Part shown: one piece after another, positions 1,855 through 38,635 of the stretch
Layout of the letters: each line of letters starts with the position of its first letter
Numbering within the stretch: the stretch's first letter is position 1
DNA from: Verrucomicrobiaceae bacterium E54
GTDB lineage: Bacteria; Verrucomicrobiota; Verrucomicrobiia; Verrucomicrobiales; Akkermansiaceae
DNA: 64,000 nt
NCBI GenBank assembly: GCA_022548915.1
Contig: JAKZES010000011.1
Coordinates: 1-64,000 of the forward strand
Direction of reading: 5' to 3'
Translations under genes and position numbers: made by a program
Notes under the pieces: model-generated
The model's database searches: none
Told to the model about the DNA's origin: nothing
Seen by the model: the letters and a program-made list of their open reading frames with translations, nothing else

Positions 1855-2538
1855 ATGAACATTGTCTCCTCCATCGCCCTTCTCGGAGCAGGATGCCTGC
1901 TTTTGTCCGGTTTGCTCGAGGCGAAGCCGCGAACCTGCCGCATCGTGTATCCCGAGCGGCCGCGGGGTGCTCCGAAGGTGGCCTGGCTTTTCGATGGCGA
2001 ACACAGCCGGAGCATCAGCCTCCCGGACAAGACCCTGTCGCCGGTGATGCCGCTGCCGGAGGGCGAACTCGTTCTGGTCATGACGCCCGAGGAGGTCGGC
2101 GCTCCGGAAGCACTCCCGCCGCAGGCTCCCCGGCTCAGGATTCCCGGGGAAGTCGCGGATTTCTACATCCTCATCACACCGGATCCGGGAAATCCGGTCC
2201 TCCCGGTCCGAATGGACCTGGTCGATTCGCAGGAAGGGGGATTGAAGCCGGGTCAGACCCTGTGGTTCAACCGCACCCAGCACCAGATAGTGGCGAAGTT
2301 GGGCGATACCGCGCTCGTGGTGAAGTCCCAGGCGCGCGCGATCTCCACCAAGCCCGCGGCCGAGAGCGGCTACTACACGGCGGAATTCCAATACCGGGTG
2401 AATGGCGAAGGGCCCTTGGTCAGGATCACGGAGCAAAGCTGGTGGCATGATGCCGGGAGCCGGCACTTGGGCTTCATTGTCAGTGCCGGGGGCCGGTTGC
2501 CGAAGATCTTCTTCTATCGGGATTTTCGTTCTCCGTGA
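1855..2538 (+). CDS. Small secreted protein of a Verrucomicrobia-type family (paralogue 1)
   Basis: 227-aa protein with a hydrophobic signal peptide (about residues 1-21, ending LLEA). I do not know a function. It shares a whole-length pattern with the gene at 6420-7139: TCRIVYPERP vs TCRLVFPEMP near the mature N terminus, LFDG, a central FY(I/L) segment, LWFN vs LWYN, ESGYY vs KSGYY, ITEQSWW vs ITEQQWW, and GGRLPKI(F/Y)F(Y/F)RDFRS at the C terminus. The pair brackets the giant prepilin-like gene. The start at 1855 was preferred to an in-frame ATG at 1843 because the signal peptide begins there; no clear ribosome-binding site is visible at either. Confidence 0.75.
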   Translation: MNIVSSIALLGAGCLLLSGLLEAKPRTCRIVYPERPRGAPKVAWLFDGEHSRSISLPDKTLSPVMPLPEGELVLVMTPEEVGAPEALPPQAPRLRIPGEVADFYILITPDPGNPVLPVRMDLVDSQEGGLKPGQTLWFNRTQHQIVAKLGDTALVVKSQARAISTKPAAESGYYTAEFQYRVNGEGPLVRITEQSWWHDAGSRHLGFIVSAGGRLPKIFFYRDFRSP

Positions 2539-2653
2539 ACCGGAGGCCCGATCGGGGCCGGGACTCCGGAACTTTCAGAGGTCTCTGATGGTTTTATGGA
2601 AGGACGGGCGGATTTTCGCTTTCGTTCTGGGCCGGCAGGCCTAAAGTTCGTGT

Positions 2654-5600
2654 ATGCACTTTGTGAATCCAAAAGCTGCGGTGCGGCAGCCGGGTTTGTT
2701 CGCGGCATCCGGTCGAGTTCGCAAAAGCGGCTTCGCCCTGGTGGTCACCATCAGCCTGATGGTCCTGCTGGCGCTGCTTGCCGTCGGCCTGCTGTCGCTG
2801 TCCTCGATCAGCCTGCGGAACTCCGCCAATGCCGTGGCGATGTCCGAGGCCCGGGCCAACGCCAGGCTGGCCCTGGTGATCGCCATCGCGGAACTGCAGC
2901 GCCACACGGGGGCCGACACCCGGGTGACCGCCTCGGCGCAACTATTGGACGAAGAAAACCCGCCGGTTCTCGGGGTCTGGAGGAGTTGGGAAGGCACGGA
3001 TCACGAGGACAACGGGCGCCCGATTCCTCCCGACTACGGGGCAAAGAACCAACCGGAGTCGAGCGGAGGTCGCTTCCTCAGCTGGCTGGTCTCGAGTGTC
3101 GACAGCGAAGGCAATCCTTCGATCAGCGACGCCCCCGGACTCGTCGAGGCAGCTGCGGGTGCGAAGACCGTTCCGCTTCTCGCGGACGGATCGTTGATGC
3201 CGGGTGATTCGCGTCAGGTTCATGTGCTTCCAACGGGGATTGTGGACGGTGGCAGCATCGCGTGGTGGATTTCGGGCGAGAACCAGAAGGCCCGGCTGGG
3301 GCAGCCCTATGAGCCGCGGGCCAATGGCGCTGCCGGCTTGGCAGAAAGGGCGCAATCGCACACGGTGGCAGACCCCGCGGTTTTCGGATTGGTGACGCTG
3401 GTCAATGACCCGGAGCCCCACGATCCGGGCGGGGCGGCGGCCAAACCGGCCCGCAAGGCCGTCACTCGTCAGTCCATGGCGTTGATCGAGGACGACAACC
3501 CGGTCGAGCCGGATCGCAGGTTTCATGACTTTTCGACCAACGCGGTCGGACTTCTGACCAACACGGCGACGGGCGGCTGGCGCAAGGACCTGTCGATCCT
3601 CAGCGAGCGCTGGGATGACATCAATGCCCGGTATCCGGGGAGACGTCTCCCGCTGTTCCGCTTCAGTCCGGAGGATGGCGACACTTCTTCCGTCCAGAAG
3701 CCCACCGTGTCGAATCACACACCCGCCCAGTCCCTGTTCTATCCATGGAGCAGCTACTCGCTCACCAGCCCCCAGAAGTGGCCCAACACGTGGCATGCCG
3801 CCTCCTCGTCATGGCAGTCCCTGGTGAATTTCGCGACCCTGTACAGGGACTTCACCTACAGCAACGGCGCGGTCGAGAGCCCCTTCATCTGGGCCCCCGT
3901 GATGAAATGGAGATGGAGGGGGAGTGAGAAGGATGCGACGGACCAGGAGTTCTACGATTACAACCACACACCCAGGATTCATCCCATCCTCGCCCGATTC
4001 CAATTCATCGTCTACGTGCGGGCCACCAATGATCCAAATCGGCCGGGGAGGTACAGGACCGACCTGATCTACTCGCCGGTGGTGACGCTTTGGAATCCCT
4101 ACAACGTGCGCCTTACGATCGATAATCCGGGAGCCCCCTCCTCGGGAGTGGTCATCGGTGGCAAGCGCTCCTTCCCGGCGGCTTTCACGGCCCAGCCCCT
4201 CAACCGTTACAGCAATCCGTTCAACATCCCGCTGAGGGAATACCGCATGCTCAGCAACGGGAACTTCCAGTACATGGACACCAACGGGAACTTCGGCGGG
4301 GAGTATGACAACCACCTGCCGGAAAACCGCGACCTCTACAACCCAGATGGAAGTCGGGCCAACACGCTGGTGGATCTGCGAACGTGGGGCATCAACCTCC
4401 CGAACGGAGAACTGACCTTCGAGCCCGGGGAAGTGCGGATGTTCACCCCGGATGGCGATGCTGAAAGGCGGTTCGGAGGAACGGCGATAGGCACGAAGGA
4501 TGGCTACCAGCCTGCCGCCCCGTCAGGTCTTCCGGTCACGATCCGCAACGGGAACCTGGGACCGAACGACTTCTTCTGGTATGTCCTGAAGAACGAGGTC
4601 TACACCCAGCCCTTCCGGTTCCGGAGTCCGGGGAGGGGGTTCAATGTCTCGTTCGGCATGAGCACCGGAAATTCCTACACGCAGGGCACCCTCTACAGCG
4701 GGGTGTCGGAGGAGATGATGAGCATGACCGCTCTGACCAATGCAAAACGGGCCAAGGTCTACTGGCCCGACCAAGACTTCGAGCCCCACGGGTACACCGT
4801 TGCGGAAATCGCGTCGGTTCCGGCAATGCCGCTCTATTCGATCACCATCGGACCGCGTTTCACGATCGGCACGGGGACAGGAACCCCGCAGAGCCGGCCG
4901 ACCAAGGGTTTTGTCCAGAGCGACCCGCTCGCCGGCATGTCGTTGGTCGATCCCGGGGCCGACAGCCCGAACAGCCACCCGGCGAATGGCAACTTTGAAA
5001 TCAGTTACGACACGCTGGCGTTTGGTTCCACGCTCACGCCCAACCTCAGCGACCGGGAAGGGTTCATTGTGACCGGCTACCAGAGCGGGGACGGTCTCTC
5101 GAGGATCATCACCCACGAACTGCCACTGCGTCCGATCGCCTCGCTCGTGGAGCTTCAGGCCTGGAACCCCAGGGGAAAGAATCCGATGCCTCCCTACCAG
5201 ACGCATCTCATCGGCAACAGCGATGCCACCCCCATGATCCCCGGCGACGCCATCGTGCCGCCGGTCATGACACCGGACAATCCCGCCGAGAACCTGCAGC
5301 ATGACGATGCCTACTGCGCGAATCACCTGCTGTTCGATGATTTCTTCTTTTCCTCCATCGCCCCCCGGCCTGTCGACTTCGGCAACAACATCGCCAGGGA
5401 CATCGAGACGGTCTACAGGGATTTCCTCAACGGCGAGCAGCCTCTCACCAACCGGGCCTACAAGCCGATCAGCATCGATACGAACCTGTCGGATGGAGAT
5501 GTCACCAGGCTCGTGGGTGACATTGTGAACAGTCCGCGGGGTGACGGCTGGATGAAGGTGGCGTCAAGGCTCGAGGTGGACGGCATGTTCAACGTGAACT

Positions 5601-6406
5601 CCACCTCCGTGGATGCCTGGCGGGGACTGCTCGGTCATGCCAGGAGCATGGATGAAATCGCCTATCATTCGGAGAACGGCATTGCTCCCCTGGACGGTGA
5701 CGACGATCGACCACACCCGGTCACCCGGGCGGCGCTGGCCCCGGACATCGAGGCGGGCAGCGATGGTGCCGGGGAAAACTCGGAGGTGACCGGTTTCAGG
5801 CGGCTGACGGATGCGCAGATCACCGACCTCGCCGAGAAGATCGTCGAGCAGGTCCGCCTGCGGGGGCCGTTCCTTTCGCTGAGCGAGTTTGTCAACCGGC
5901 AGCTCGGCAGCGACGGCGACCTCGCACTCGCCGGCGCGGTGCAAAGTGCGATCAACAGCCTCGAGGACGACCCGATGAGCGTGCTCCGTGACCCGGGAAG
6001 TTTTCTTTCGGACGACACGATGGCCTCGAAGGCAGCGGCCGGAAGCCAGGTGGATGGTGCCCGCCTCGCGGGGGTCGATTATGAGTTTGAGGAGGCGGCC
6101 GAGGGCAGCAGCCTGTACGGGCTGCCCGGTTGGATCCGGCAGGCCGATGTCCTGAGGCCGATCGCTCCCGTGCTGAGCGCCCGTGACGACACCTTCACGG
6201 TTCGTGCGTATGGCGATGCGAGGGATGCGGATGGCAATGTCACCGCAAGAGCCTGGTGCGAAGCGACCGTTCGCAGGCAGCGGGACTTCGTGGACAGCGC
6301 CGACCCGGCCGACGCCACGGATGGACCTTCCAGCGAACTCAACAGGATCTTCGGCCGACGATACCAGGTCGTGTCATTCCGGTGGTTGAGTGGGGATGAG
6401 GTTTAG
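2654..6406 (+). CDS. Verru_Chthon cassette protein A-like giant prepilin-like protein
   Basis: 1250-aa protein whose N terminus resembles a type IV pilin leader: a basic stretch RVRKSG, then Gly26-Phe27 and the hydrophobic helix FALVVTISLMVLLALLAVG, followed by a helical RNSANAVAMSEARANARLAL segment. It lacks the Glu5 of true pilins. The rest is a large, probably surface-exposed region rich in Asn, Pro and Gly, with recurring words such as NPYN, RFQFIVY and FNVNSTSVDAWR. This fits the Verru_Chthon cassette protein A family known from Verrucomicrobium and Chthoniobacter. The usual small B, C and D partner genes are not adjacent; instead two paralogous secreted proteins flank it. Function is unknown in the family; export through a pseudopilin-type machinery is inferred. 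Confidence 0.8.
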   Translation: MHFVNPKAAVRQPGLFAASGRVRKSGFALVVTISLMVLLALLAVGLLSLSSISLRNSANAVAMSEARANARLALVIAIAELQRHTGADTRVTASAQLLDEENPPVLGVWRSWEGTDHEDNGRPIPPDYGAKNQPESSGGRFLSWLVSSVDSEGNPSISDAPGLVEAAAGAKTVPLLADGSLMPGDSRQVHVLPTGIVDGGSIAWWISGENQKARLGQPYEPRANGAAGLAERAQSHTVADPAVFGLVTLVNDPEPHDPGGAAAKPARKAVTRQSMALIEDDNPVEPDRRFHDFSTNAVGLLTNTATGGWRKDLSILSERWDDINARYPGRRLPLFRFSPEDGDTSSVQKPTVSNHTPAQSLFYPWSSYSLTSPQKWPNTWHAASSSWQSLVNFATLYRDFTYSNGAVESPFIWAPVMKWRWRGSEKDATDQEFYDYNHTPRIHPILARFQFIVYVRATNDPNRPGRYRTDLIYSPVVTLWNPYNVRLTIDNPGAPSSGVVIGGKRSFPAAFTAQPLNRYSNPFNIPLREYRMLSNGNFQYMDTNGNFGGEYDNHLPENRDLYNPDGSRANTLVDLRTWGINLPNGELTFEPGEVRMFTPDGDAERRFGGTAIGTKDGYQPAAPSGLPVTIRNGNLGPNDFFWYVLKNEVYTQPFRFRSPGRGFNVSFGMSTGNSYTQGTLYSGVSEEMMSMTALTNAKRAKVYWPDQDFEPHGYTVAEIASVPAMPLYSITIGPRFTIGTGTGTPQSRPTKGFVQSDPLAGMSLVDPGADSPNSHPANGNFEISYDTLAFGSTLTPNLSDREGFIVTGYQSGDGLSRIITHELPLRPIASLVELQAWNPRGKNPMPPYQTHLIGNSDATPMIPGDAIVPPVMTPDNPAENLQHDDAYCANHLLFDDFFFSSIAPRPVDFGNNIARDIETVYRDFLNGEQPLTNRAYKPISIDTNLSDGDVTRLVGDIVNSPRGDGWMKVASRLEVDGMFNVNSTSVDAWRGLLGHARSMDEIAYHSENGIAPLDGDDDRPHPVTRAALAPDIEAGSDGAGENSEVTGFRRLTDAQITDLAEKIVEQVRLRGPFLSLSEFVNRQLGSDGDLALAGAVQSAINSLEDDPMSVLRDPGSFLSDDTMASKAAAGSQVDGARLAGVDYEFEEAAEGSSLYGLPGWIRQADVLRPIAPVLSARDDTFTVRAYGDARDADGNVTARAWCEATVRRQRDFVDSADPADATDGPSSELNRIFGRRYQVVSFRWLSGDEV

Positions 6407-6419
6407 TCGATATCGCATC

Positions 6420-7139
6420 ATGTTCAGGACGATTGTCATTCTTGTGTCGACCATTCTTGCGGTCTCGCCGGGTTTCGCCGACGACCTCAGGAAGTCGGAA
6501 CGGACCTGCCGTCTGGTGTTTCCCGAGATGCCGAGTGGTTTTCCGCGATTCGTTCACCTGTTCGATGGGAAGGACAATCACAGGGTCTACTTGTCGGCGG
6601 TGAACTTCTCGGAGGTCGTCAAGCTCAGGCCGGGCGACATCACTCTCGTGATGGCTCCGGAACCCATCAGCGATCCGGAGAACATTCCGAGCGGGTATCC
6701 GAGGTTGTCGGTGGGCGAGGGAGTGAGGAACTTCTACCTTTTTCTGTCACCCGACAGGGACAACAAAAGCATGCCCCTTCGGATGAACCTGATCAATCTT
6801 GATGAGGGGAAGTTCAAGATCGGGAACACGCTTTGGTACAACTTTACCAACCATCTGGTCCAGGCGAGGCTGGGGAAGAGCAAGTTGTCGGTTGGCGCCA
6901 GGAAGTTCGCCATCTCGGAAGCCCCCCTGCCGAAGAGCGGCTACTACCGGGCGGAGTTCATCTTCCAGCCACAGTCCACCGGCAATTTCCGGAGGATCAC
7001 CGAACAGCAGTGGTGGTTCGATGAGAATTGCCGGTATGTCGGATTCGTGGTCGATCGCGGGGGGAGGCTTCCGAAGATCTATTTCTTCAGGGATTTCAGG
7101 AGCAAGATCGAGGCCGAGGACGACGGCGGCGATGAGTGA
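6420..7139 (+). CDS. Small secreted protein of a Verrucomicrobia-type family (paralogue 2)
   Basis: 239-aa paralogue of the gene at 1855-2538 (shared words TCRLVFPEMP, LFDGK, LWYN, KSGYYRAEF, ITEQQWWFDE, GGRLPKIYFFRDFRS). The start at 6420 gives a clean signal peptide, MFRTIVILVSTILAVSPGFA; in-frame ATGs at 6390 and 6396 would overlap the preceding gene and add a charged leader. It follows the giant prepilin-like gene by only 13 nt, so the two are probably co-transcribed. The C terminus ends in an acidic tail (IEAEDDGGDE) that the first paralogue lacks. Function unknown; a secreted partner or chaperone of the large protein is possible but unproven. Confidence 0.75.
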   Translation: MFRTIVILVSTILAVSPGFADDLRKSERTCRLVFPEMPSGFPRFVHLFDGKDNHRVYLSAVNFSEVVKLRPGDITLVMAPEPISDPENIPSGYPRLSVGEGVRNFYLFLSPDRDNKSMPLRMNLINLDEGKFKIGNTLWYNFTNHLVQARLGKSKLSVGARKFAISEAPLPKSGYYRAEFIFQPQSTGNFRRITEQQWWFDENCRYVGFVVDRGGRLPKIYFFRDFRSKIEAEDDGGDE

Positions 7140-7260: not shown

Positions 7261-9051
7261 CTATTCCTCCGGCACCAGCTGCGCCTTGAGGTATTCCTGG
7301 TCCTCCTCGCTGAAGGCCATGAACTCGAGGTCGCGGGTGCCGCCGTGTTTCAGGGAGATCCGCACGATGCCCGACGCGGGATCGAAGCCCACCAACCGGC
7401 CATCGAAGGAGCGGCTGCGGTCGGCGTTGCGGAACGTCCGGAGTTCTCCAAGATTTGATTCCGGCAGACGGCTGGTGCTGTCGGCGGTCTCTGCAGCCGA
7501 TCCGTCCACACCGTGCACCCGGAGTTTCGGGGACGAGTAGCTGTAGAGAAAGGCGACGGCGGCGGTGGTGTGGGCACGGATGTTGCCGCGGTAGTAGGAG
7601 CCATCCGCGTAATCGCGTGCCGGCAGGATCACGTAGGAGTCGCTGCCGTGGCAGCGGGCCATGTTGATCCAGGCCTTGTAGTAGTCGGCCACCGTTTCCC
7701 GGAGCTTGCGGTCATCCGAGGCGAAGGTGCCGGCCCAGCCCCAGGTCAGGCCCATCATCGCGCAGGCGTGGCCGTCGGGCATGTCCTTGTAGGCCGCCTC
7801 GATGTTCTCGAGGTGCAGCTTCTTCATCTTCTTCGACTCCGGGCGCTCCGGCGAGAGCTGGTGAACGAGGTAGCCGAGGCCGGACTTGTGCGAGGCCCCG
7901 TGGCGGGTGTTCGCCTTCCAGCTCTTCCAGTCGACCGGGCCGTTGTTCAGGGTGAACTCCCCGCCGTAGGCGATCTTGCCGGCATTCGTCGTGCCGTGAT
8001 CGAGGAAGGTGAAACTCCGGTCCACGGCTTCCTGGTCGACCTCGAGGCCGCATTGCTTGCTCAACTCCCAGGTCATCAGGGCGAGGCAGGTCGGCCATTG
8101 CATCGGCCCGTAGCCACCCCCGCCGCGTTCGACGATCACCGAGTAGGGCGCATGGCCGAAGCCTCCCTCGTAGAGCGCCTGGTGCTTGTCGATGATGGCC
8201 TGGTCGATGCCCTTGATCTGCTCCGACTTCCAGTGGTGGATCGGAGTCTTCCACTGGGCGGCTTCGAGAAGTTCCATGGTCGATTCCAGTGTCTTGAGCA
8301 CTTTGCGGTCGCCGGTGAGCAGGTAGTACTCCGCCAGCGTGATCCCCTGAAATCCGAGGTGCCACGACCAGGTGGTCTCCCCCTGCGGCTCGTTCCATTC
8401 CAGCGCCATCCGTTTGCCGGCCCTCGCGGCCTTGGGGTCATCCGAGCTGAGCAGGGCGAGCGTCGCGACGCAGCGCCCCTGTGAGCTGACCCCGCCGAAG
8501 TGCTCGATCAGGTATTCCTCCGCGCGCGCCTTGAGCACCCGGGTCTTTTCGCAGTCGACCGGGAAGCTGTCGGCGAAGCGGCCCAGCACCTCGAGCTGGA
8601 CGTCGACCTCGAGGTTCTCCCCGGCTCGCTTGACCATCAGCTTCAGCACGCCGTCCTCGCCCTCGCTGTCCTCGATCGCCAGGCCGAGGTCCTGGATGGG
8701 ACCTTCGATGCCGTGATTGCCGCCGCCGAAGGTGTGGGCCGGGAAGCGTTTGCCATTCGCCCCGTAGACCTCGTCGTCGATTTCGAGCACGCCCTTCGCC
8801 GGGGATTTGGCGAAGATGTATTTCACGACAAACGCGCGCTCCTTGAGAATCCCCCGGGCACCGGTGGGACCCATGTTGACGAGAAAGCCGGGGACTTCCG
8901 CGTCCGGCCCATCCTTGCACGGTTGTTCCCAGCGGCCCTGGTTGTCCGGATCCTTGATGCCGAGGGCGGCGCCGGTCAGGCCGACCAGGGCGGCGAGGCA
9001 GAGGACGATTCCATTTCCCAGCGGTTCCAGTTGGCGTCGGCAGGCTCTCAT
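7261..9051 (-). CDS. Secreted DUF6288-like protein with C-terminal SHD1-like domain
   Basis: 596-aa protein read from ATG at 9051, chosen because it begins a signal peptide (GNGIVLCLAALVGLTGAALG); longer in-frame extensions upstream have no such character. An early segment (residues about 30-190, VPGFLVNMGPTGARG, GKRFPAHTFGGG) is followed by a long helical central part (TTWSWHLGFQGITLAEYYLLTGD, YGPMQWPTCLALMTWEL, DGHACAMMGLTWGWAG), compatible with an alpha/alpha toroid. The last 60 residues, RTFRNADRSRSFDGRLVGFD followed by LEFMAFSEEDQEYL, match the SLA1-homology-1-like domain that Planctomycetes and Verrucomicrobia append to secreted proteins. Enzymatic role unknown. Confidence 0.75.
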   Translation of the reverse strand: MRACRRQLEPLGNGIVLCLAALVGLTGAALGIKDPDNQGRWEQPCKDGPDAEVPGFLVNMGPTGARGILKERAFVVKYIFAKSPAKGVLEIDDEVYGANGKRFPAHTFGGGNHGIEGPIQDLGLAIEDSEGEDGVLKLMVKRAGENLEVDVQLEVLGRFADSFPVDCEKTRVLKARAEEYLIEHFGGVSSQGRCVATLALLSSDDPKAARAGKRMALEWNEPQGETTWSWHLGFQGITLAEYYLLTGDRKVLKTLESTMELLEAAQWKTPIHHWKSEQIKGIDQAIIDKHQALYEGGFGHAPYSVIVERGGGGYGPMQWPTCLALMTWELSKQCGLEVDQEAVDRSFTFLDHGTTNAGKIAYGGEFTLNNGPVDWKSWKANTRHGASHKSGLGYLVHQLSPERPESKKMKKLHLENIEAAYKDMPDGHACAMMGLTWGWAGTFASDDRKLRETVADYYKAWINMARCHGSDSYVILPARDYADGSYYRGNIRAHTTAAVAFLYSYSSPKLRVHGVDGSAAETADSTSRLPESNLGELRTFRNADRSRSFDGRLVGFDPASGIVRISLKHGGTRDLEFMAFSEEDQEYLKAQLVPEE

Positions 9052-9255
9052 CCTCGGGGTTCCTGGGTTTCGTGGTGGTTTGGGGAGAATACCCCGAAAA
9101 GAATTACGAGTCACGGTTGCCAAGCTATCACTCGGGCATGGAATTGGAATGACCGGGTGGTCGGGCTTTTCCCGGCCTGCATTTCTCCCGTCCGTGAGAA
9201 ATCCGGACTCGGACTCTCGCGACTCCATGGTCACTTCCTCGATCCGTTTCCGCAG

Positions 9256-9402
9256 ATGCGCCTGCAGAACCTGACAATCGGACTTCTGGCATTGACCGCC
9301 ACCGCTGCCGCGGCTCGACAAGGCGCGGGTTCGGCCGCGGACGAAGCGGCAAAGGATTTCTCGGAGGAGCCGGAATCTCCTGCTACGACTGCCGAAGAGT
9401 GA
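9256..9402 (+). CDS. Small secreted acidic peptide, hypothetical
   Basis: 48-aa frame: a short basic start (MRLQNL), a hydrophobic stretch TIGLLALTATAAAA ending in a plausible signal-peptidase site, then an acidic tail rich in Glu, Ala, Ser and Pro (ADEAAKDFSEEPES). It lies between the divergent DUF6288-like gene and the next plus-strand gene. No ribosome-binding site is evident and I recognise no family. The signal-peptide character makes it a candidate real gene rather than noise. Confidence 0.35.
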   Translation: MRLQNLTIGLLALTATAAAARQGAGSAADEAAKDFSEEPESPATTAEE

Positions 9403-9463: not shown

Positions 9464-12133
9464 ATGAAGGGGAAGATGATCGAAGGCTCCGCGGCGGGAC
9501 GCCACGAGACCCGAGTCGCCCTCGGTCTCGTGTTCGCGTCCGGCTTCGCCGCCCTGATCTATCAGGTGCTGTGGATGAAGCAGATCGGCCTGCTCTTCGG
9601 CAACACCTCCCACGCGGCGGGCACGACGCTGGCATCCTTCTTCGCCGGGCTCGCGCTTGGGAGCTGGTTCTTCGGTCGCCGGGTCGCCACCGCGCCCAAC
9701 CCGATGCGGACCTACGCCTGGCTCGAGGCGGGCATCGCGGTCACGGCCCTGCTCTACTTCGCGGTCATGGCCCTCTACCGGTGGATCTACCCGCCGATCT
9801 TCCAAGGCGTCGGTCCCGGGGCCCTGCTCACCTTGATCAAGTTCGGCCTGTCGCTGCTGCTGGTCTTTCCGCCCGCCTTCTGCATGGGCGGCACCATCCC
9901 CGTGATCGGCCAGTTCATGGTCCGCGAGCGTCGCCACTTCGGGCGGATCTCCGCCCTGATGTATGGCCTCAACACGCTGGGTGCGGCGCTGGGTGCGGCG
10001 CTGGCCGGATTCTACCTGCCCCTGTGGCTCGGCTTCGGCCTGACCTGCGGCCTCGCGATTCTCCTTTCGGCCCTGGTCGCGCTGGTCGCCTTCCGTCTGT
10101 CGCGGAGCGCCCGCCCCGTCGCCTTTCAGGCCAATGCCGCCGCGGCGCCTGAGGAGATGCCCGCGCAGGAACCGGAGGTGCGCCTGTCCCGCCAGGAGCG
10201 CCGCCAGCTCGAGCGGGAGCACAAGCGCCGCAGAACACCGGCGCTCAAGCCTGCCGATGCGTCCGCAAATTCACCGCCCGCCGGCGGCCGCCGGGCCATC
10301 CTCTTCCTCGGATTCGTTTCCGGGTTCGGGGTGCTCGCCCTGGAAGTCCTCTGGACCCGACTGTTTTCCCAGGTGCTGGAAAACTCGGTCTACACCTTCG
10401 CCGCCATCCTCGTGATCGTGCTGATCTGCCTGGCGCTCGGCGCCTTGCTCAGCTCCCAGCTGGCCCGCTTGAAGGCGCCGCCCTTCCTGGTGCTCACCGG
10501 ACTGATCCTCGCGGGCGCCGTGGCCGTGACCTTCACCCCCGCCATCTTCCTGGCCGTGACGGACGGCATGCAGGTCGTCGCCTCCACCGGCAGCTGGTTT
10601 TCCTACATCCTCCTGATCTTCCGGACGGGCTTCATCACCATCGGTCCGTCCGCCCTGCTGCTTGGGATGATCTTTCCCTACCTGATGAAGGTGGAGGAGC
10701 GTCACGTGAAATCCCCGGGGCTCTCGCTCGGGCAGCTGGCGGCGGCGAACACGGCCGGCGCCATCCTCGGGGCGCTGCTCTGCGGTTTCCTGCTGCTCGA
10801 CGCCTTGAAGCTCTGGGGCAGCATGCAGGTCATCGCCCTGGTCTACATCGCCGCGGCCCTGCTGCTGCCGCTGAGGTGGGATCGCGCCAGCTTCGCCGCC
10901 AAGGCCGCCTGCCTCGGCGTGCTGCTCATCAACGGCCTCGCCCTCAAGCCGGACCGCCTGCCGGTGCTCAGCACCGACCCGCTCGGCGTCGAGGAACGCC
11001 TCGTCGAATCCTGGGAAGGCAGCGACTGCACCGTCGCGGTCACCGACAGCCGCTACGGACTCGCGATCAAGATCAACTCGCACTACAGCCTCGGTGCGAC
11101 CGGCTCCTACATGCAGGAAAAGTTCCAGGCGGACCTCCCGCTGATGGTCTATCCGGAAACCGAGAGCCTGTTCTTCCTCGGCGTCGGCACCGGCACCACC
11201 GCGGGCAGCGCGCTCGACCCGCGGCATTCCAAGGTGCAACGCGTGGTCGCCTGTGAACTGGTCCCCGAGGTGATCACCGCGGCGAAGAAGTACATGACGG
11301 ATGTGCAGGGCTTCGACACCACCGACGGCCTGTTCGAGGACCCGCGCGCCGAGGTGCTGATCGAGGACGGCCGCCACTACCTGATGGCCACCGATCAACG
11401 CTTCGACATCATCAATGCCGACCTCTTCGTGCCCTTCCGCTCGGGGGCCGGCAGCCTTTACACCCGCGAGCATTTTGAAAATGCCCGGAAGCGATTGAGC
11501 CCGGACGGGGTCTTTGTTCAATGGCTGCCGCTCTATCAGCTCACCGAAAACGAGTTCTCCATCATCGCCCGGACCATGGTCGAGGTCTTCGACCAGGTTT
11601 CGTTGTGGCGTCACAACTTCCAGCCTGGCGATGAGATCGTCGCGCTCATCGGGCACCAGCCCGGGTGCCCCCTGCCGGCGAGCGACCTCGACAGCAGCGC
11701 CGACAAACTGCTCGCGGTTTCCGGCAAGGACCACCGCGACCTCATGCGCCTCAGCCTGCCCCTCGATCCGCAGACCATCCTGCTTTTCTACGGCGGCAAC
11801 CTGACCGCCGCCCGCTCGCTGTTCGAGGACCATCCGGTCAACACCGACAACCGCCCCGTGATCGAGTACATGGCCCCGCGCAGCTACCGCCGCGGCACGG
11901 TGGATGCGCCACCCTGGTTCACCGGCAAGCCCTTCGCCGACTTCGTTGACAAGCTGCAGCAGATCTGTCCTCCGGACCGCGATCCACTCCTGGTGAATCG
12001 CACCAAGGCCAACCATCGCCTGCCCTTGGCCGGCAGCGCCTTCCACCACGCCCGCATCGCCGAAGTCGAAGGGGATGACGAGTCCGCCCGCAAAGGCTGG
12101 GAGAAGTTCGTCTCGGAGTGGACGGACCGGTGA
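9464..12133 (+). CDS. Membrane-bound spermidine/spermine-synthase-like protein
   Basis: 889-aa fusion of an N-terminal membrane domain and a C-terminal spermidine-synthase-type Rossmann domain. Residues about 15-490 hold a dozen or so hydrophobic segments, interrupted near 220-260 by a charged Arg/Glu-rich linker (RLSRQERRQLEREHKRRR). From about residue 550 come LFFLGVGTGTTAGSALD (SAM-binding glycine loop), VVACELVPEVI, DGRHYLMATDQRFDII and FVQWLPLYQLTENEF. Such fused proteins are common in Gram-negative bacteria; whether this one makes a polyamine is not shown. An alternative start at 9476 has a better ribosome-binding site (AAGGGG 3 nt upstream). A C-terminal TPR-like stretch (SAFHHARIAEVEGDDESARK) ends the protein. 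Confidence 0.85.
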   Translation: MKGKMIEGSAAGRHETRVALGLVFASGFAALIYQVLWMKQIGLLFGNTSHAAGTTLASFFAGLALGSWFFGRRVATAPNPMRTYAWLEAGIAVTALLYFAVMALYRWIYPPIFQGVGPGALLTLIKFGLSLLLVFPPAFCMGGTIPVIGQFMVRERRHFGRISALMYGLNTLGAALGAALAGFYLPLWLGFGLTCGLAILLSALVALVAFRLSRSARPVAFQANAAAAPEEMPAQEPEVRLSRQERRQLEREHKRRRTPALKPADASANSPPAGGRRAILFLGFVSGFGVLALEVLWTRLFSQVLENSVYTFAAILVIVLICLALGALLSSQLARLKAPPFLVLTGLILAGAVAVTFTPAIFLAVTDGMQVVASTGSWFSYILLIFRTGFITIGPSALLLGMIFPYLMKVEERHVKSPGLSLGQLAAANTAGAILGALLCGFLLLDALKLWGSMQVIALVYIAAALLLPLRWDRASFAAKAACLGVLLINGLALKPDRLPVLSTDPLGVEERLVESWEGSDCTVAVTDSRYGLAIKINSHYSLGATGSYMQEKFQADLPLMVYPETESLFFLGVGTGTTAGSALDPRHSKVQRVVACELVPEVITAAKKYMTDVQGFDTTDGLFEDPRAEVLIEDGRHYLMATDQRFDIINADLFVPFRSGAGSLYTREHFENARKRLSPDGVFVQWLPLYQLTENEFSIIARTMVEVFDQVSLWRHNFQPGDEIVALIGHQPGCPLPASDLDSSADKLLAVSGKDHRDLMRLSLPLDPQTILLFYGGNLTAARSLFEDHPVNTDNRPVIEYMAPRSYRRGTVDAPPWFTGKPFADFVDKLQQICPPDRDPLLVNRTKANHRLPLAGSAFHHARIAEVEGDDESARKGWEKFVSEWTDR

Positions 12134-29484: not shown

Positions 29485-29547
29485 AGTTCAGAGCCTGGAG
29501 CCTGGAGCTTGGAGCTGGTTGGCACTTGGCACTTGGCACTTGGCACT
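29485..29547 (+). repeat. Nine-unit heptamer array upstream of pth
   Basis: Consecutive 7-mers AGTTCAG, AGCCTGG (twice), AGCTTGG, AGCTGGT and TGGCACT (four identical copies). The array ends 20 nt before the pth start. Similar heptamer arrays in the same orientation precede tadA, mnhC and the Nudix gene. Confidence 0.7.
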
Positions 29548-29567
29548 TCGAGCCGGAGGCTCGCCCC

Positions 29568-33830: not shown

Positions 33831-34100
33831 CGTCGGTTGGAATCGAAAGCCCGATTTCCAGTCCGGTTCTTATTGAACGACATCGAATTCGTGCAAACCC
33901 TTTCGCCAGAGACCCGCCGCGTGCCTCATGAAGCGATTCGAGAAGATTCCCGCCGTTCCGTCCGACGAAGTGCCGTCCGCCTCCGCCCCCGTGCGGCGGG
34001 GTCGGCCGGCCATGCAGGGGCGGGCTGATGGCGCGGCCCCGCGGTCCTGCCCGTGTGCCACCGAGGCCGGATATCGCTGAAACGTCCGGCATTTTTGAAG

Positions 34101-36800
34101 ATGAGCGAGGCTTTCCTTTCCGCCCTGCTGCCGGTGGTACCGCTGGCACTGGCCCTGCTGTGGCCGGGTCTCGTGCGCTCGCGGCCCCAATGGATCACCG
34201 GCCTGGCGGCGGCCCTGATGGCTGCCGGCTCGGTGGCGATGTTCGCCCGGGTGCCCGGGCTGGAACCCGCCCGGCAGTCGTGGGATTGGGTTCCGCAGCT
34301 GGGCGTGGAGTTCGCGTTCCGGCTCGACTCGTTCACCGCCTGGTTCGCGGCGCTGGTCCTCGGGCTCGGGGCCTGCGTGGTGCTGCATGCCGGCGGCTAC
34401 CTGGCGAAAAGCCGTCACCTCCCCGGGGTGCTGGCGGCGCTGTGCGGCTTCACGCTGGCGATGCTCGGCGTGATCCTTTCCGACAACCTCTACCTGCTGT
34501 TCCTCTTCTGGGAGGCGACCTCGCTGCTCTCCTTCCTGCTGGTGGGCTTCCACCATGAAAAGGAGGAGGTGCGGGAAAAGGCGGCGCAGGCGCTGCTGGT
34601 CACCCTCGCCGGCGGCGCGTGCATGCTCGCCGGGATCGTGCTGACGCACCTGCATTTTGGCACGGCATCCATCGTGGAGCTGCTGACCATGGCCGGCGAC
34701 GGCACGGCGGCGACGCTTTCGAGCGGCGCGCTGGTGCTGCTTCTCCTCGGGGCCTTCACCAAGTCGGCGCAGTGGCCGTTCCACTTCTGGCTGCCGAACG
34801 CGATGGTCGGTCCGGCCCCGGTGTCGGCGTTCCTGCACTCGGCCACGATGGTCAAGGCCGGCGTGTTCTTCATGGCGACGCTCGCGCCTTTGCTTTCCGG
34901 GCACCCGCTGTGGACGCCGCTGGTCACCACCGCGGGTCTGCTCACGGTTGCCACGGCGGTCCTGCGCGGCGCGCGCGAGCAGGACCTCAAGGCGCTGCTC
35001 GCCTGCACGACTTTGGCCGCGCTCGGATTCCTGACGGTGCTGGCGGGTCTCGGCACGCCGGCGGCGATGCTCGGGTTCGTGATCTTTCTCACCGCGCACG
35101 CGCTCTACAAGGCGCCGCTCTTTCTCGCCGCCGGCAACCTCGAGAAAACCTTCGGCACCCGCCAGCTCGGGGGGCTGGTCGGCGCCGTGAAGGCGGCGCC
35201 CTTCACCGGTCTGGCCTTCGCGGTCTCGGCGCTGTCGCTGATCGGTCTCGCCCCCCTGCCGGGATTCCTCGGGAAGGAATACCTGCTCAAGGCCACCTGG
35301 GCCTACTCGCCGCTGCTCGCGGTTTCGACGGCACTGGCCGCGGCCGGCGTGCTGGGCCTGGGACTCAAGCTGCTGCTGCCCCTGCTCGACTGGCGCCAGC
35401 GCCCCGAGCCGAAGAAGAGGCTCCCGCTTTCGATGACCCTGGCCGCCCTGATCCCGGCTCTCGGCACGCTCGGGCTGGTCATTTCGCTGCCGGCGACGAC
35501 CCACGAGTTTCTCGGTGCGGCCGCCACCGCGCTCGGGGCACCGGCGGATGCGGCCTTCAAGTTCTGGCATGGCTGGACGCCGGCCTTCGGCCTGGGAATG
35601 GGGGCGCTGCTGCTTTCGGTGGCGGTGTGGCGGGTGCTGATCCGGCCGGATCTCGCCCCGCTCCCGGACAGCCTGCAGCCGATCTTCGAGCCGGCCTTCA
35701 ACAACACGGTGCAGGCGATCCGCACGCTGGGCACCGGCGCGGGTCGATGGCTCGAAGCGGGCCGGCCCGGGGTGCAGATGGGAATCATGATTGCGGCCAT
35801 CGGCCTGCTGGCCTTCATCGGCCTCGACGCGGCGGAGTGGTCCTTCCCCGAGTCGGATGCCTCGGCGGGCACCTCGGTGTGGCTGCTGCTGGCACCGGTG
35901 GCCGCGCTGGCCGCCTTTCTCGCCTGCACTGCCCGGACCACGCTCACGCTGCTGGTTTCGCTCGGCTTCGTGGGCCTGATCGTCGCCCTGCTGTTCCTCT
36001 GGTTCAGCGCCCCGGATCTCGCGCTCACCCAGCTGATGGCGGAAACGCTGCTGCTGTTCCTGCTGGCCGGCGTGCTCAAGAAGACCGGCGTCGAGGCCAC
36101 CACCTCGTCGTTTTCCCTGGGCCGGGCGCTGGTGGCCCTCGCCGGCGGCCTGCTGGTCACCATGCTGGTGCTGAAAGCCATGGCGCTCGAGTGGGACCAC
36201 CCGATCTCCGATTTCCACCTCACCCACAGCAAGTCCGCGGCCTACGGCGCCAACGTGGTCAACGTGATCCTGGTCGATTTCCGGGCCATCGACACCCTCG
36301 GCGAGATCCTGGTGCTGGCGATCGCCGCACTGGGAGCGACGGCGGCCCTCGGCGCGGCGCGGCGGCGGTCCATCCTGCCCTTCGACAGTGAAAGCCCGTG
36401 GCTCGGCACCGCGGCGCGGGGGCTCGCGGCCTTCTGCCTGCCGGTCTCGCTGTGGCTCTTCTGGCGCGGGCACAACGCTCCGGGTGGCGGCTTCATTTCC
36501 GCCCTCGTCGCGGCCACGGCGCTGGGCCTGCTGCTGCTCGTGCGCCATCCGCGCCTCGATGCCCGGCGGCTGCGCCATGCCTCGCTGCGGCTCATGGTCG
36601 GCGGACTCGGTGTGGCGCTCGGCTCGGCGCTTCTGCCGCTGTTTTCCGGCAAGGAATTCTTTACCGGCCTGTGGTGGCACTCCGGCGACTTCCATCTCGG
36701 CACGCCCCTGCTTTTCGACCTCGGCGTCTACCTCACCGTGCTCGGCTTCTGCCTCGGCTTCCTCCGCCATTTCCAGCCGAACCGGACATCTGCACTCTGA
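34101..36800 (+). CDS. mnhA: Mnh/Mrp sodium/proton antiporter subunit A fused to subunit B
   Basis: 899-aa membrane protein, largest subunit of the seven-component Mrp antiporter. The first 500 residues are the NuoL/ND5-like part with FWEATSLLSFLLVGF, FTKSAQWPFHFWLPNAMVGP, PVSAFLHSATMVKAGVF and the conserved Lys/His residues of the proton path. The following region includes LALTQLMAETLLLF and NVVNVILVDFRAIDTLGEIL (MbhE-like). Residues about 765-899 are a complete MnhB domain (LWLFWRGHNAPGGGFISALV, LLFDLGVYLTVLGFCLGFL). The A-B fusion matches the group 2 mrp operons of proteobacteria. ATG at 34101 has GAAG just upstream. It heads the operon AB-C-D-E-F-G. Confidence 0.93.
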   Translation: MSEAFLSALLPVVPLALALLWPGLVRSRPQWITGLAAALMAAGSVAMFARVPGLEPARQSWDWVPQLGVEFAFRLDSFTAWFAALVLGLGACVVLHAGGYLAKSRHLPGVLAALCGFTLAMLGVILSDNLYLLFLFWEATSLLSFLLVGFHHEKEEVREKAAQALLVTLAGGACMLAGIVLTHLHFGTASIVELLTMAGDGTAATLSSGALVLLLLGAFTKSAQWPFHFWLPNAMVGPAPVSAFLHSATMVKAGVFFMATLAPLLSGHPLWTPLVTTAGLLTVATAVLRGAREQDLKALLACTTLAALGFLTVLAGLGTPAAMLGFVIFLTAHALYKAPLFLAAGNLEKTFGTRQLGGLVGAVKAAPFTGLAFAVSALSLIGLAPLPGFLGKEYLLKATWAYSPLLAVSTALAAAGVLGLGLKLLLPLLDWRQRPEPKKRLPLSMTLAALIPALGTLGLVISLPATTHEFLGAAATALGAPADAAFKFWHGWTPAFGLGMGALLLSVAVWRVLIRPDLAPLPDSLQPIFEPAFNNTVQAIRTLGTGAGRWLEAGRPGVQMGIMIAAIGLLAFIGLDAAEWSFPESDASAGTSVWLLLAPVAALAAFLACTARTTLTLLVSLGFVGLIVALLFLWFSAPDLALTQLMAETLLLFLLAGVLKKTGVEATTSSFSLGRALVALAGGLLVTMLVLKAMALEWDHPISDFHLTHSKSAAYGANVVNVILVDFRAIDTLGEILVLAIAALGATAALGAARRRSILPFDSESPWLGTAARGLAAFCLPVSLWLFWRGHNAPGGGFISALVAATALGLLLLVRHPRLDARRLRHASLRLMVGGLGVALGSALLPLFSGKEFFTGLWWHSGDFHLGTPLLFDLGVYLTVLGFCLGFLRHFQPNRTSAL

Positions 36801-36816
36801 ACTCTTCACCCTGAAC
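36789..36816 (+). repeat. Four-unit heptamer array spanning the mnhA stop codon
   Basis: TCTGCAC, TCTGAAC, TCTTCAC, CCTGAAC: four 7-mers in register. The mnhA TGA stop lies within the second unit and the mnhC start codon follows 8 nt after the array. It is a degenerate relative of the TTGGCAC/TTGGAAC arrays. Confidence 0.55.
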
Positions 36817-36824
36817 TTCCGTCC

Positions 36825-37118
36825 ATGCCCGTTCTCCTCGCCATCACCATCGGACTCCTGGCCACCGCCGGACTGTATCGTCTGCTCGGTCCGAGCCGCA
36901 TCGACGCGCTGGTGGGCCTGATCCTGCTCGGCCAGGCGGCCAATCTCGTGCTCTTCGCCTCGGGCGGCCTGCGCCACAATGCGCCCGCCCTGATCGAGAA
37001 GGGCATGGCGGTGCCGACGGATCCGCTGCCGCAGGCGCTGGTCCTCACCGCCATCGTCATCGGCTTCGGCATCATCGCCTTCCTGCTCACCCTCGTCCTT
37101 CGCTCGTCCGACAAATGA
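36825..37118 (+). CDS. mnhC: Mnh/Mrp antiporter subunit C
   Basis: 97-aa NuoK-like subunit with three helices (LLAITIGLLATAGLYRLLGP, LVGLILLGQAANLVLFASGG, QALVLTAIVIGFGIIAFLLT). PLPQALVLTAIVIGFG is the diagnostic MnhC/NuoK signature. Its stop overlaps the mnhD start by 4 nt, implying translational coupling. Confidence 0.92.
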   Translation: MPVLLAITIGLLATAGLYRLLGPSRIDALVGLILLGQAANLVLFASGGLRHNAPALIEKGMAVPTDPLPQALVLTAIVIGFGIIAFLLTLVLRSSDK

Positions 37119-38635
37119 CTCCCGACCTCCAGCTCCTGCTGTGCCTGCTCGCGCCCTTCGTCGGCGCGGTGGTGTGCCTGGCGGTCGGCCCCCGCCCGCG
37201 GGTGACCGCCGGCATTGCGATCCTGGCCGTCGCGGTCAGCCTCGCGGCGGCCCTCGGGCTGGTTGCGGCAACGGCCGACGGCGAGGTTTTCGCCGTGCAT
37301 GCCGGCGGCTGGAGCGCGCCCTTCGGTATCGTGCTGGTGGCCGACACCTTTTCGGCGCTGATGCTCGCCGTGTGCCAGCTGGTCACGCTTGCCGCACTTG
37401 TCACGGGTGCCGCCGTGCTGCCGGCGCACTGGCACCGCCGGCATTTCTTCCCGCTGGTGCTCACGCTCAGCACCGCGACCTGCGGCGCCTTCCTCACCGG
37501 CGACCTGTTCAACCTCTACGTCTGGTTTGAAGTACTGCTTCTCTCGTCGTTCGCGCTCATGGCCATCATGCGTGGCAGGGAGGCGCGGGCCGGCGCGTGG
37601 CGCTACGTTCTGCTCAACCTCGTCTCCTCGCTGCTTTTCCTCGCCGCGGCGGGACTCATCTACGGCAAGACCGGCACGCTCAACTTCGCCGACCTGCACC
37701 TGCGCTTCGCGGGCGCCGACGACGCCTTCCTGGTGAAAAGCTCGACGGCGCTCCTGTTCGGCTCGTTCGCGATCAAGTCGGCGCTGCTGCCCTTCGCCTT
37801 CTGGCTGCCCTCGTCCTATCCCCAGCTGCCGCCGGCGGTCTCCGCGCTCTTCGCCGGGCTGCTGACCAAGATCGGCCTCTACGCGATGTTCCGGGTCTTC
37901 GGGATGGTCTTCGGCACCGACACCTTTCCGCACCGCGACCTGCTGGAGCTGCTGGCGGTGCTGACCATGCTCGGCGGGGTGCTGGGGGCCGTCGCGCAGG
38001 GAGGGATGCGGCGCATCCTTTCGTTCCACATCATCAGCCAGGTCGGCTACATGGCGCTGGCGCTGGCGCTCTACACCCCGCTGGCGCTGGCGGCCGGGAT
38101 CTTCTACCTGGTCCACCACATCGTGGTGAAGGCAAACCTGTTTCTCGTTGCCGGTCTGGTCGAGCGGCGGGCGGGCTCCTCCGAACTCGACCAGACCCGC
38201 GGGCTGCTGCGCGCGGCCCCGTGGCTGGCGCTTCTGTTCGCCATCCCCGCGCTCTCGCTGGCGGGCATTCCGCCGCTCTCCGGCTTCTTCGCCAAGTTCG
38301 CGCTGCTCCGCTCGTCGCTGGAAACGGGCGACACCCTGGCGACGACGGCGATCGTCGGCGTCGGCCTGCTGACCGTCTTTTCCATGCTCAAGATCTGGCG
38401 CGCCGCCTTCTGGGGCGAGGCACCGGAGGCCGGCCCCGCCAAGCCGGCGGCCCCGCCGGCCATCGCCAGCTCGCTGGCGCTCGGAGTGGTCACGGTGATC
38501 ATCGGCTTCGCCGCCGGACCGCTCTTCGGCCTCGCCGAGACGGCGGCCGAAGGCCTGCGCGAGCCGACCGCCTACATCGACGCCGTGCTCGGCACGGGGA
38601 ACGCGCCTGAACCCGCCAACACCGCTGCCAAATGA
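37115..38635 (+). CDS. mnhD: Mnh/Mrp antiporter subunit D
   Basis: 506-aa NuoM/N-like subunit with about 14 transmembrane helices. FNLYVWFEVLLLSSFALMAI carries the conserved Glu of helix 5, IKSALLPFAFWLPSSYPQLP the lysine-bearing helix, and GVLGAVAQGGMRRILSFHII plus FYLVHHIVVKANLFLVAGLV the rest of the ion pathway. Both junctions, with mnhC and mnhE, are 4-nt ATGA overlaps. Confidence 0.93.
   Translation: MTPDLQLLLCLLAPFVGAVVCLAVGPRPRVTAGIAILAVAVSLAAALGLVAATADGEVFAVHAGGWSAPFGIVLVADTFSALMLAVCQLVTLAALVTGAAVLPAHWHRRHFFPLVLTLSTATCGAFLTGDLFNLYVWFEVLLLSSFALMAIMRGREARAGAWRYVLLNLVSSLLFLAAAGLIYGKTGTLNFADLHLRFAGADDAFLVKSSTALLFGSFAIKSALLPFAFWLPSSYPQLPPAVSALFAGLLTKIGLYAMFRVFGMVFGTDTFPHRDLLELLAVLTMLGGVLGAVAQGGMRRILSFHIISQVGYMALALALYTPLALAAGIFYLVHHIVVKANLFLVAGLVERRAGSSELDQTRGLLRAAPWLALLFAIPALSLAGIPPLSGFFAKFALLRSSLETGDTLATTAIVGVGLLTVFSMLKIWRAAFWGEAPEAGPAKPAAPPAIASSLALGVVTVIIGFAAGPLFGLAETAAEGLREPTAYIDAVLGTGNAPEPANTAAK

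Follow-up and report, generated by a model that had tools for sequence, protein, structure and literature searches.

Three open reading frames (ORFs) on the forward strand form the locus described here, which lies in a 64,000-nucleotide stretch of DNA from Verrucomicrobiaceae bacterium E54 (hereafter, the window). The central gene (2654..6406, +), recognized from its ORF and translation, encodes a giant protein of 1250 aa, designated A, with the predicted fold of the minor pseudopilin GspK. The gene of a small secreted protein, S, lies directly downstream (6390..7139, +), and that of a second small secreted protein, S′ (227 aa), lies upstream (1855..2538, +). The S reading frame gives 249 aa from a GTG codon that overlaps the stop codon of A, or 239 aa from the ATG at 6420, which is probably the start of the signal peptide. 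S and S′ share 43% identity over 224 aligned positions and are thus paralogues, and both end in GGRLPKI(F/Y)F(Y/F)RDFRS. A sequence-only reading of this DNA had described a giant protein between two duplicated secreted proteins with matching end motifs and without its usual B, C and D partners. This description was borne out at the locus: all three ORFs are present, and next to A in the window there is no prepilin-like gene of the B, C or D type. The neighbors of the three genes encode a sulfatase, a DUF6288 protein and a spermidine-synthase-like protein. A, S and S′ themselves reached no Pfam or NCBIfam cut-off.

Residues 1–55 of A (2654..2818, +) comprise a class III prepilin-type leader of the GF type and an N-terminal hydrophobic helix (...KSG/FALVVTISLMVLLALLAVGLLSLSSISLR). 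A of the window has no Glu at mature position 5. A GF-type leader was present in 94 of the 95 giants examined, with V, I, A, S, T or L, and never E, at position +5. GspK likewise is without Glu5, and A therefore shares with it a prepilin leader combined with a non-Glu residue at mature position 5. Conservation along A was profiled in 50-residue blocks over 94 aligned sequences. The N-terminal part (residues 56–305; 2819..3568, +) and the C-terminal part (residues 806–1250; 5069..6403, +) were conserved, with majority-residue fractions per block of 0.34–0.61 and 0.30–0.67, respectively; the C-terminal motifs are FNVNSTS, RGPFLSLSEFVNR, DTF.(I/V)RAYG and AWCEA.V.R. The middle of the protein (residues 306–805; 3569..5068, +) was variable, at 0.15–0.34 per block, and may represent a specificity or partner-binding insertion.

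When compared with curated families, A scored 14.8 bits with the Verru_Chthon A model (TIGR02600; cut-off 332.3), and no protein anywhere in the genome of the organism exceeded that cut-off. Verru_Chthon A proteins are defined as being encoded beside B, C and D, an arrangement that A of the window does not have. The earlier likening of A to this family holds for the first 63 of the 1296 profile positions and not beyond, and because the match spans only the pilin-helix end, the plain label "Verru_Chthon A" was rejected. The type II secretion system (T2SS) GspK model NF037980 gave 18.6 bits over residues 25–96, below its cut-off of 130, and a PDB profile search with the giants returned no match.

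The AlphaFold2 model of residues 56–1250 of A (pLDDT 82.2, pTM 0.89) was compared with known structures. VIA-align placed four GspK/XcpX chains first (5vtm_X, Z 10.1; 3ci0_K, Z 9.8; 6utu_C and 9a1f_T, both Z 9.6) with 223–242 residues aligned, and the row after them had a Z of only 2.2. The GspK fold was distributed over both ends of A. Z values near 10 are good but not overwhelming, because by the aligner's own note values of 7–8 are common without a true relative. Foldseek alone also ranked GspK first, although weakly (3ci0_K; E value, 0.15; probability, 0.09). A is thus predicted to have the fold of GspK, the tip pseudopilin of type II secretion, with huge insertions, and on the strength of this modeled fold the pseudopilus tip is its likeliest place. 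In the T2SS, the partners of GspK in the tip complex are GspI and GspJ. A resembles GspK/XcpX (3ci0_K, 5vtm_X) in its prepilin-type leader without Glu5, its N-terminal helix and its predicted fold, but it is approximately four times longer, occurs in 18 copies, is paired with S and, in the loci seen, does not stand beside a T2SS cluster.

S was modeled by AlphaFold2 with a pLDDT of 92.2. The predicted structure has two tandem beta-sandwich domains arranged as in the extracellular domains of mammalian PepT1/PepT2, which it matched at Z 13.1 (5a9h) and Z 13.2 (5a9i_A). With the 194-residue 5a9i_A (PepT2 extracellular domain), 178 residues were aligned at an rmsd of 3.4, and Foldseek returned eight PepT chains (E value, 3e-7 to 2e-4). 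This is a likeness of fold, not of function: identity is approximately 7–16%, the PepT domain is an insertion in an animal transporter, and S does not belong to the PepT family by sequence. Among 98 small proteins, no Pfam family matched more than one member at E 0.1; seven families matched one member each (best E value, 0.0082; DUF4397 at 0.092), and none of these matches was used. A PDB profile search with the small proteins gave chance matches only (E value, 0.38 and above) and no PepT chain. The N-terminus of S is of the Sec type, and a lipobox pattern was found in only 6 of the 98.

The 5.9-Mb genome of the organism carries 18 A genes. In 16 of them, the start of an S gene lies between −11 and +51 nt relative to the A stop. 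This co-location is far beyond chance. The reading frame is open over 1135–1417 aa in 17 of the 18 copies, and the GspK-like ends are conserved. Damaged copies were also observed: the copy at C175 contains an internal TAG, a 79-aa remnant lies at C173, and in a relative (L129) an ORF is inserted within A. The flanking of a giant by two small proteins, although real at the window locus, was dropped as a conserved unit; the conserved partner is the single small protein directly downstream. S′ is an extra duplicate outside the A-S unit, and its nearest relatives include the S genes that directly follow the two closest full-length relatives of A (58%, L065:11760; 56%, L066:11069). Same-strand upstream small genes that cannot be assigned to another giant as its downstream partner also occur at L129, at L157 and, among the matches listed, at G011:C112. 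Small genes on the opposite strand were seen upstream of a giant at three loci (L105, L142 and, among the matches listed, G006:C37) and downstream at one (G001:C52, among the matches listed).

Profiles of A and S both matched the same 14 of 19 genomes (that of the organism and 18 relatives). Among the A matches listed, 123 of 150 were followed by S on the same strand, and for 27 no S was listed downstream; among the matches listed, 108 of 130 same-strand gaps from A to S were ≤200 nt. In the named relatives, S was present for 74 of the 88 A copies with room for it; 6 of 94 copies lacking 700 nt of room were excluded, and the split copies L129, L136 and perhaps L138 were counted twice. A survey of 194 genomes sampled from the phylum found A in 50; it mostly scored three candidates per genome and thus gives presence, not copy number. 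From this survey 20 loci were hand-picked. At 14 loci from other families of the phylum, S accompanied 14 of 15 A copies; in the small-genome sister genus g9, adjacent S was absent for all nine A genes at the six loci examined. The small family is thus enriched beside A elsewhere in Verrucomicrobia, as the sequence-only reading had proposed in suggesting a conserved co-location; the lack of enrichment that it had named as counting against the idea was not observed. No paper on this gene family was found under the names tried.

The trees of A and S co-vary over 79 pairs (Pearson 0.904, Spearman 0.752), and the highest value among permutations (Spearman for the first 300, Pearson for the remaining 1700) was 0.158. 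The nearest neighbor agreed for 44 of the 79 pairs. Co-divergence of this kind is also expected from linkage. Linkage alone would account for it if the copies had arisen by neutral duplication of a linked gene pair without any common machine, a history to which the damaged copies would also conform. However, nearly all copies in this genome are open with conserved ends, A-S pairing recurs in other families of the phylum, and a C gene follows A across the 194 genomes; neutral duplication is considered highly improbable.

That C gene, which is GspJ-like, belongs to a D-B-C trio, of which the genome has one, on contig C166 and apart from the A genes. The trio is orthologous to a trio that is joined to an A-S pair in genome G015 (C 58%, D 52%, B 47%), and its C and D matched TIGR02599 and TIGR02596 below cut-off. 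Among the 19 genomes, exactly one C gene was present in 13 of the 14 that bear A, and none was present in the five that lack it. Across the 194 genomes, with up to 12 candidates scored per genome for C, A and C occurred together in 47, A only in three, C only in three and neither in 141; a Fisher test on this co-occurrence ignores phylogeny. Two genomes of family f14 (G136 and G175) have A-S and no C match. Two of the genomes counted as C only were found to encode a short A next to C (G139, 442 aa; G186, 432 aa), and in the third (G113) no A was found near C. The view of A and its small proteins as a "minimal" unit without B, C and D was not supported: the genome keeps one such trio at another site, and throughout the phylum C tends to occur together with A.

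The gene order D-B-C-A was found at four loci of other families, with distant relatives of A. In joined D-B-C-A operons, S accompanied a long A in four of four cases and a short A in none of seven; this count excludes L213 and L215, where the contig ends. At L192 a joined A is possible, because the contig ends 0.8 kb beyond C. Two f14 loci (L173 and L174) with a long A and S were kept apart from the long-A count because both lack the trio. Together with phylum-wide co-location and co-divergence, the finding that joined operons have S only when their A is long supports, as far as genomics can show, the part of the earlier interpretation in which the small protein works with the giant.

The link between S and long A could also mean that S acts in the periplasm as a chaperone, folding or stabilizing the large insertion of A and staying in the cell, with A alone as the exposed tip. 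A Sec-type N-terminus with few lipobox patterns would suit such a role, as would the usual presence of one tightly spaced S per A among the matches listed. However, S diverges along with its own A and so resembles a specific partner more than a general chaperone. Moreover, very long A proteins lack an adjacent S in all the g9 genes examined, and S is most similar in fold to extracellular domains and not to a chaperone. A chaperone role appears rather doubtful on this evidence.

These loci recall the Verru_Chthon cassette (TIGR02600, TIGR02598, TIGR02599 and TIGR02596) in the large GspK-like A with its N-terminal TIGR02600 match, in the D-B-C-A order at other-family loci and in the sub-cut-off matches of C and D. 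They differ from it in that the A-, B-, C- and D-like proteins reach no curated cut-off, and A is detached from D-B-C and amplified. To our knowledge, S is not part of that cassette. The genome also has a separate cassette-like cluster at C176, with an A-like protein of 1025 aa and C- and D-like neighbors; it was rejected as the partner of the giants because the giant profile gave its A-like protein 1.9 bits and no small gene was found next to that protein.

The genome encodes four secretins, a prepilin peptidase and GspE/PilB-type ATPases, so that both the peptidase and the pseudopilin ATPase that the sequence-only reading had proposed to look for were found. It also contains an ordinary T2SS-like cluster, in which GspG exceeds its cut-off and the matches to GspH, GspI and GspK fall below theirs. 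The A-S units could serve this ordinary T2SS, with A replacing the normal GspK and S acting as cargo or cargo adaptor, in which case amplification would reflect cargo choice. The predicted GspK fold of A, the cluster and the secretins are all compatible with this, and the T2SS tip complex is described, in the available text of one study, as critical for substrate recognition (PMC6211770). However, that T2SS has its own minor pseudopilins, and the C gene that co-occurs with A, like its trio, is distinct and separate from these; we regard service to the ordinary T2SS as credible but unlikely.

Alternatively, the filament might export or handle polysaccharide like the cyanobacterial Hps pseudopilins, with A-S as substrate-specific parts. 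C of this genome scored 29.7 bits with HpsC, and the C-type proteins of two joined operons scored 27 and 37 bits, all below the cut-off of 200, but these matches span only the N-terminal 68–85 residues. Sulfatase-type genes were the commonest other neighbor by sequence reading, a raw count of 20 of 96 loci to which the genome of the organism supplies only three, and the association with polysaccharide loci was set aside. A polysaccharide filament is considered very unlikely.

We consider it fairly probable that the window contains one copy of an A-S tip module that has been amplified and works on a shared D-B-C base in a type-II-secretion-like pseudopilus. A would be a tip minor pseudopilin of the GspK type, in which a variable insertion of hundreds of residues enlarges a small GspK core, and S would be a Sec-exported two-domain beta-sandwich protein that belongs with, and may bind, this insertion. 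The single D-B-C trio would supply GspH/I/J-like minor pseudopilins and, with the pseudopilus machinery of the genome, would assemble beneath whichever of the 18 A-S tips is present. Such interchangeable tips on one base would give the cell a choice of what to carry or touch with its pseudopilus tip, whether for cargo export or for contact.

Two described systems may serve as precedents for this tip reading by analogy. The available text on the Myxococcus Kil pilus describes a Tad-type filament with interchangeable minor-pilin tips, three minor pilins per tip and four sets (PMC12075869). The likeness is that a single filament has more than one paralogous set of tips, whose exposed domains vary; the A-S tips would differ in having one GspK-like giant per tip, 18 sets, other minor pseudopilins that are proposed to be shared, and a secreted partner for most. 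In Vibrio cholerae, according to the available text, the type IVb tip minor pilin TcpB binds and carries TcpF, a secreted protein of the same operon (PMC9565799). V. cholerae has one such pair, and A-S is likened to it by arrangement, not sequence.

More tentatively, and with some doubt on our part, the phylum may possess a "one base, many tips" filament, in which one trio serves giant GspK-like tips that number between a few and several tens in each genome and mostly have a co-diverging secreted partner. Type II secretion systems and type IV pili are usually thought to have one tip complex each. In the present genome A and its secreted partner have multiplied to 18 A copies, while the C-type minor pseudopilin has stayed single. 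If the proposed reading is true, this would be, as far as we know, the largest exchangeable-tip repertoire of any type IV filament, and how the tip decides pseudopilus recognition would become directly testable. The cell could then choose what its filament exports or binds, and the reading provides a hypothesis for a gene family present in about a quarter of the sampled genomes of the phylum.

Three open reading frames (ORFs) were found by ORF analysis and translation: a gene for a small secreted protein (S) at 1855-2538 (227 aa), the gene for the giant prepilin-like protein (A) at 2654-6406 (1250 aa), and a second S gene at 6390-7139, encoding 249 aa from a GTG start that overlaps the stop of A, or 239 aa from an ATG at 6420. 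The two small proteins share 43% identity over 224 aligned positions and a C-terminal end, GGRLPKI(F/Y)F(Y/F)RDFRS. The order of small, giant and small gene and the paralogy of the small proteins were as the sequence-only reading had described. Flanking of the giant by two small genes is not the conserved arrangement. The closest relatives of the upstream S include the S genes directly 3′ of the two A relatives that are nearest among the full-length ones (58% for locus L065:11760 and 56% for L066:11069), and L066 carries two consecutive S genes. Because these relatives sit 3′ of A and such a double S exists, the upstream S is regarded as an old duplicate; its placement as the second half of a sandwich around A was rejected.

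Of the nucleotide relatives of the window A that were seen, L129:3146-8427 is the closest; it matches at approximately 72–75% in longer segments and is interrupted by a stretch with an opposite-strand ORF (5068-6357). Adjoining the A-S unit in the window is a DUF6288-family secreted protein (7261-9321, reverse strand), whose N.GPTGARG-like start was also seen by eye in a protein (L147:15998-18421) near another giant of this genome, C44b. Further features of the window are a fused MFS/spermidine-synthase-like membrane protein (9464-12133; NF037959, 155.9 bits), a perfect heptamer repeat of TTGGCAC in 4.3 copies (29519-29548), and a region of strong AT skew (33870-38788; about -0.3 at 34001-38000) with a G+C content of 0.69–0.70 and long ORFs on both strands.

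A protein search with ORF checking identified 18 A copies in the 5.9-Mb genome of this bacterium, in which the window opens contig C22, together with a 79-aa remnant on contig C173. An S-type ORF on the same strand starts between -11 and +51 nt from the A stop in 16 of the 18 copies. When each of the 17 small proteins (these 16 and the window upstream S) was left out of the profile used to score it, the scores were 48–177 bits. No downstream S was found for the giant on contig C184; the C44b giant also has none, and its next gene encodes a protein of 427 aa whose C-terminus looks OmpA-like by reading of the sequence. The gene of the giant on contig C175 (L047:6109-9711) is open apart from one in-frame TAG at about 46% of its length and is followed by an intact S; this copy is either a recent pseudogene or the product of a sequencing error. 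A lone S relative in genome G000 (C99:43170-43826, reverse strand) contains an internal TGA, and none of the listed giants lies within 2.5 kb of it.

Relatives of A were found in named genomes of Akkermansiaceae, Luteolibacter, Haloferula, Roseibacillus, Rubritalea, and other Verrucomicrobia. When this genome and 18 relatives were searched, the A profile matched 14 of 19 genomes and the S profile the same 14, with 3–38 A matches per genome, a count that includes fragments from draft assemblies. Among the matches listed, 123 of 150 A have S 3′ of them on the same strand, no more than 2.5 kb away; conversely, 130 of 150 S matches lie downstream of A in this way, with a median gap of 39 nt, 16 are alone, and four are otherwise placed. 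Across 78 named loci, 88 A copies had room of 700 nt or more, and S was present for 74 of them. In a hand-picked set of 14 loci from other families of the phylum, S was downstream of 14 of 15 A copies and upstream of the fifteenth (L157). Tandem A-S-A-S arrays occur at four loci (L065, L071, L106, and L130), and at one locus of Akkermansia glycaniphila (L080) S follows only the last of three A (41 bits). Neighbourhood analysis thus bears out the proposed association of the small family with giants, and the conserved, amplified unit is A-S. In a sister genus of the same family (g9; genomes of 2.2–3.3 Mb), giant matches numbered 1–3 per genome in 16 of 17 sampled genomes, with three candidates scored in each; none of the nine giants at six loci (L149-L154), which form divergent pairs three times, has an adjacent S. 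Family and genome size suggest that g9 is Akkermansia, in which case the giant would also occur in gut species.

A and S diverge together. Their tree distances correlated with a Pearson coefficient of 0.904 over 79 pairs (no permutation exceeded 0.158) and of 0.873 over the 16 pairs of this genome (best of 2000 permutations, 0.419), and 44 of the 79 pairs had the same nearest neighbour in both trees. Linkage alone would also be expected to produce this co-divergence.

The window A matched TIGR02600 (14.8 of 332.3 bits) and the type II secretion system (T2SS) GspK model (18.6 of 130 bits) at the pilin-helix end only; at an E value of 0.01, 13 and 9 of 17 copies in this genome, respectively, matched these models. 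A GF-type prepilin leader was present in 94 of 95 A sequences, in which mature position 5 is V, I, A, S, T, or L and never E, and no second membrane-like segment was found past residue 150 in the 95. In an AlphaFold2 model of residues 56-1250 (pLDDT 82.2, pTM 0.89), Foldseek ranked GspK first, weakly (3ci0_K; E value, 0.15). VIA-align placed four GspK/XcpX chains at Z 9.6–10.1 and the next entry at 2.2 among 505 aligned chains, on a scale where Z 7–8 often arises in the absence of any true relative; the alignments cover 223–242 residues with an rmsd of 3.4–3.6. Since the aligned ranges span the model end to end, very large insertions appear to interrupt the GspK core of A. The two ends of A are well conserved, residues 306-805 poorly. 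A is therefore predicted to share the fold of GspK, but with an insertion that is variable and far larger, and with an accompanying partner. For S, a hydrophobic N-terminal core was found in 94 of 98 proteins, a lipobox pattern in six, and a second membrane-like stretch in three. Its model (pLDDT 92.2) comprises two beta-sandwich domains resembling the extracellular domain of PepT2 (5a9i_A; Z 13.2, 178 aligned, rmsd 3.4; Foldseek PepT chains, E values down to 3e-7), a fold match at about 7–16% identity that does not imply function.

The sequence-only reading had the giant without the B, C, and D prepilin-like partners of Verru_Chthon cassettes. This is correct for the locus, but the genome keeps one D-B-C trio, which stands apart without A or S on contig C166 (L144:4484-6911). 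With a profile of the C protein from which the pilin helix was removed, exactly one C was found in 13 of 14 A-bearing genomes and none in the five lacking A; the sole A-bearing genome without a match (G011) is 72% complete. D and B lie upstream of C at 10 of the 13 loci by motif scan, with only B recognised at L190, L194, and L198. Neither A nor S was found near C at 12 of the 13 loci, fetched at 8–15 kb (at L192 the contig ends 0.8 kb past C). Genome G015, from another family of the order, has A-S-D-B-C joined, and its trio is orthologous to that on C166 (C 58%, D 52%, and B 47% identity). Among 194 genomes of the phylum, 47 had both A and C, three only A, three only C, and 141 neither (50 with each; Fisher 1e-37, which ignores phylogeny); where two C matches occurred, they were adjoining pieces of one gene. 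In 11 of these 47 genomes C adjoins A; in the other 36 no listed A lies next to it.

At six loci from two other families (L169-L174), a distant A of 948–1094 aa (212–304 bits with the A profile) is followed by S (24–91 bits), and at four (L169-L172) prepilin-like genes reading D-B-C lie directly 5′ of A. S can thus close an operon of the order D-B-C-A-S. The scanned B, C, and D of joined loci gave Verru_Chthon and Gsp matches below cut-off or none, save the general prepilin N-terminal domain. With loci cut by contig ends (two) left out, S was absent from all seven joined operons with a short A (411–446 aa) and present in all four with a long A (962–1094 aa), as well as at two loci of family f14 with a long A (948 and 1059 aa) and no trio in sight. 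Therefore, S goes with the insertion of A and not with the D-B-C-A operon itself; the g9 loci depart from this pattern in having a long A without S next to it. In the f14 genomes with A-S pairs at L173 (G175) and L174 (G136), no C-type protein was detected; these genomes would use another trio or have a C that has diverged beyond the reach of the profile. The bacterium also has a second cassette-like cluster on contig C176 (L064:1409-6330), with C- and D-like pseudopilins and a protein of 1025 aa whose N-terminus matches GspK and Verru_Chthon A. This protein scored 1.9 bits against the profile of the giants, and no S was found beside it.

The search for assembly machinery suggested by the sequence-only reading located one prepilin peptidase, nine T2SSE-family ATPase matches, and four secretin genes in the genome. 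Contig C88 carries a T2SS cluster in which GspG exceeds its cut-off and the matches to GspH, GspI, and GspK fall short of theirs, and contig C111 has two GspE/PilB-type ATPases, with a GspF-like and two GspG-like genes by ORF reading. Earlier papers describe GspK as capping the pseudopilus, with an insertion that might hold it at the tip (PMC7248040), and XcpX as topping a tip complex critical for substrate recognition (PMC6211770). In the simplest reading, each A-S pair would be one tip, and these tips would be assembled on the single, shared D-B-C trio, A presumably binding its S. Two precedents make both halves of this model plausible: the Myxococcus Kil pilus is described as using four minor-pilin tips that can replace one another (PMC12075869), and TcpB, a minor pilin at the tip, as binding secreted TcpF from the same operon (PMC9565799). 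No mention of Verru_Chthon or TIGR02600 was found in the open-access papers searched, and the listed titles and abstract openings on pseudopilins, GspK, or prepilins of Verrucomicrobia or Akkermansia showed no such system. What would be new is the multiplication of a GspK-type tip and its pairing with a secreted protein of its own.
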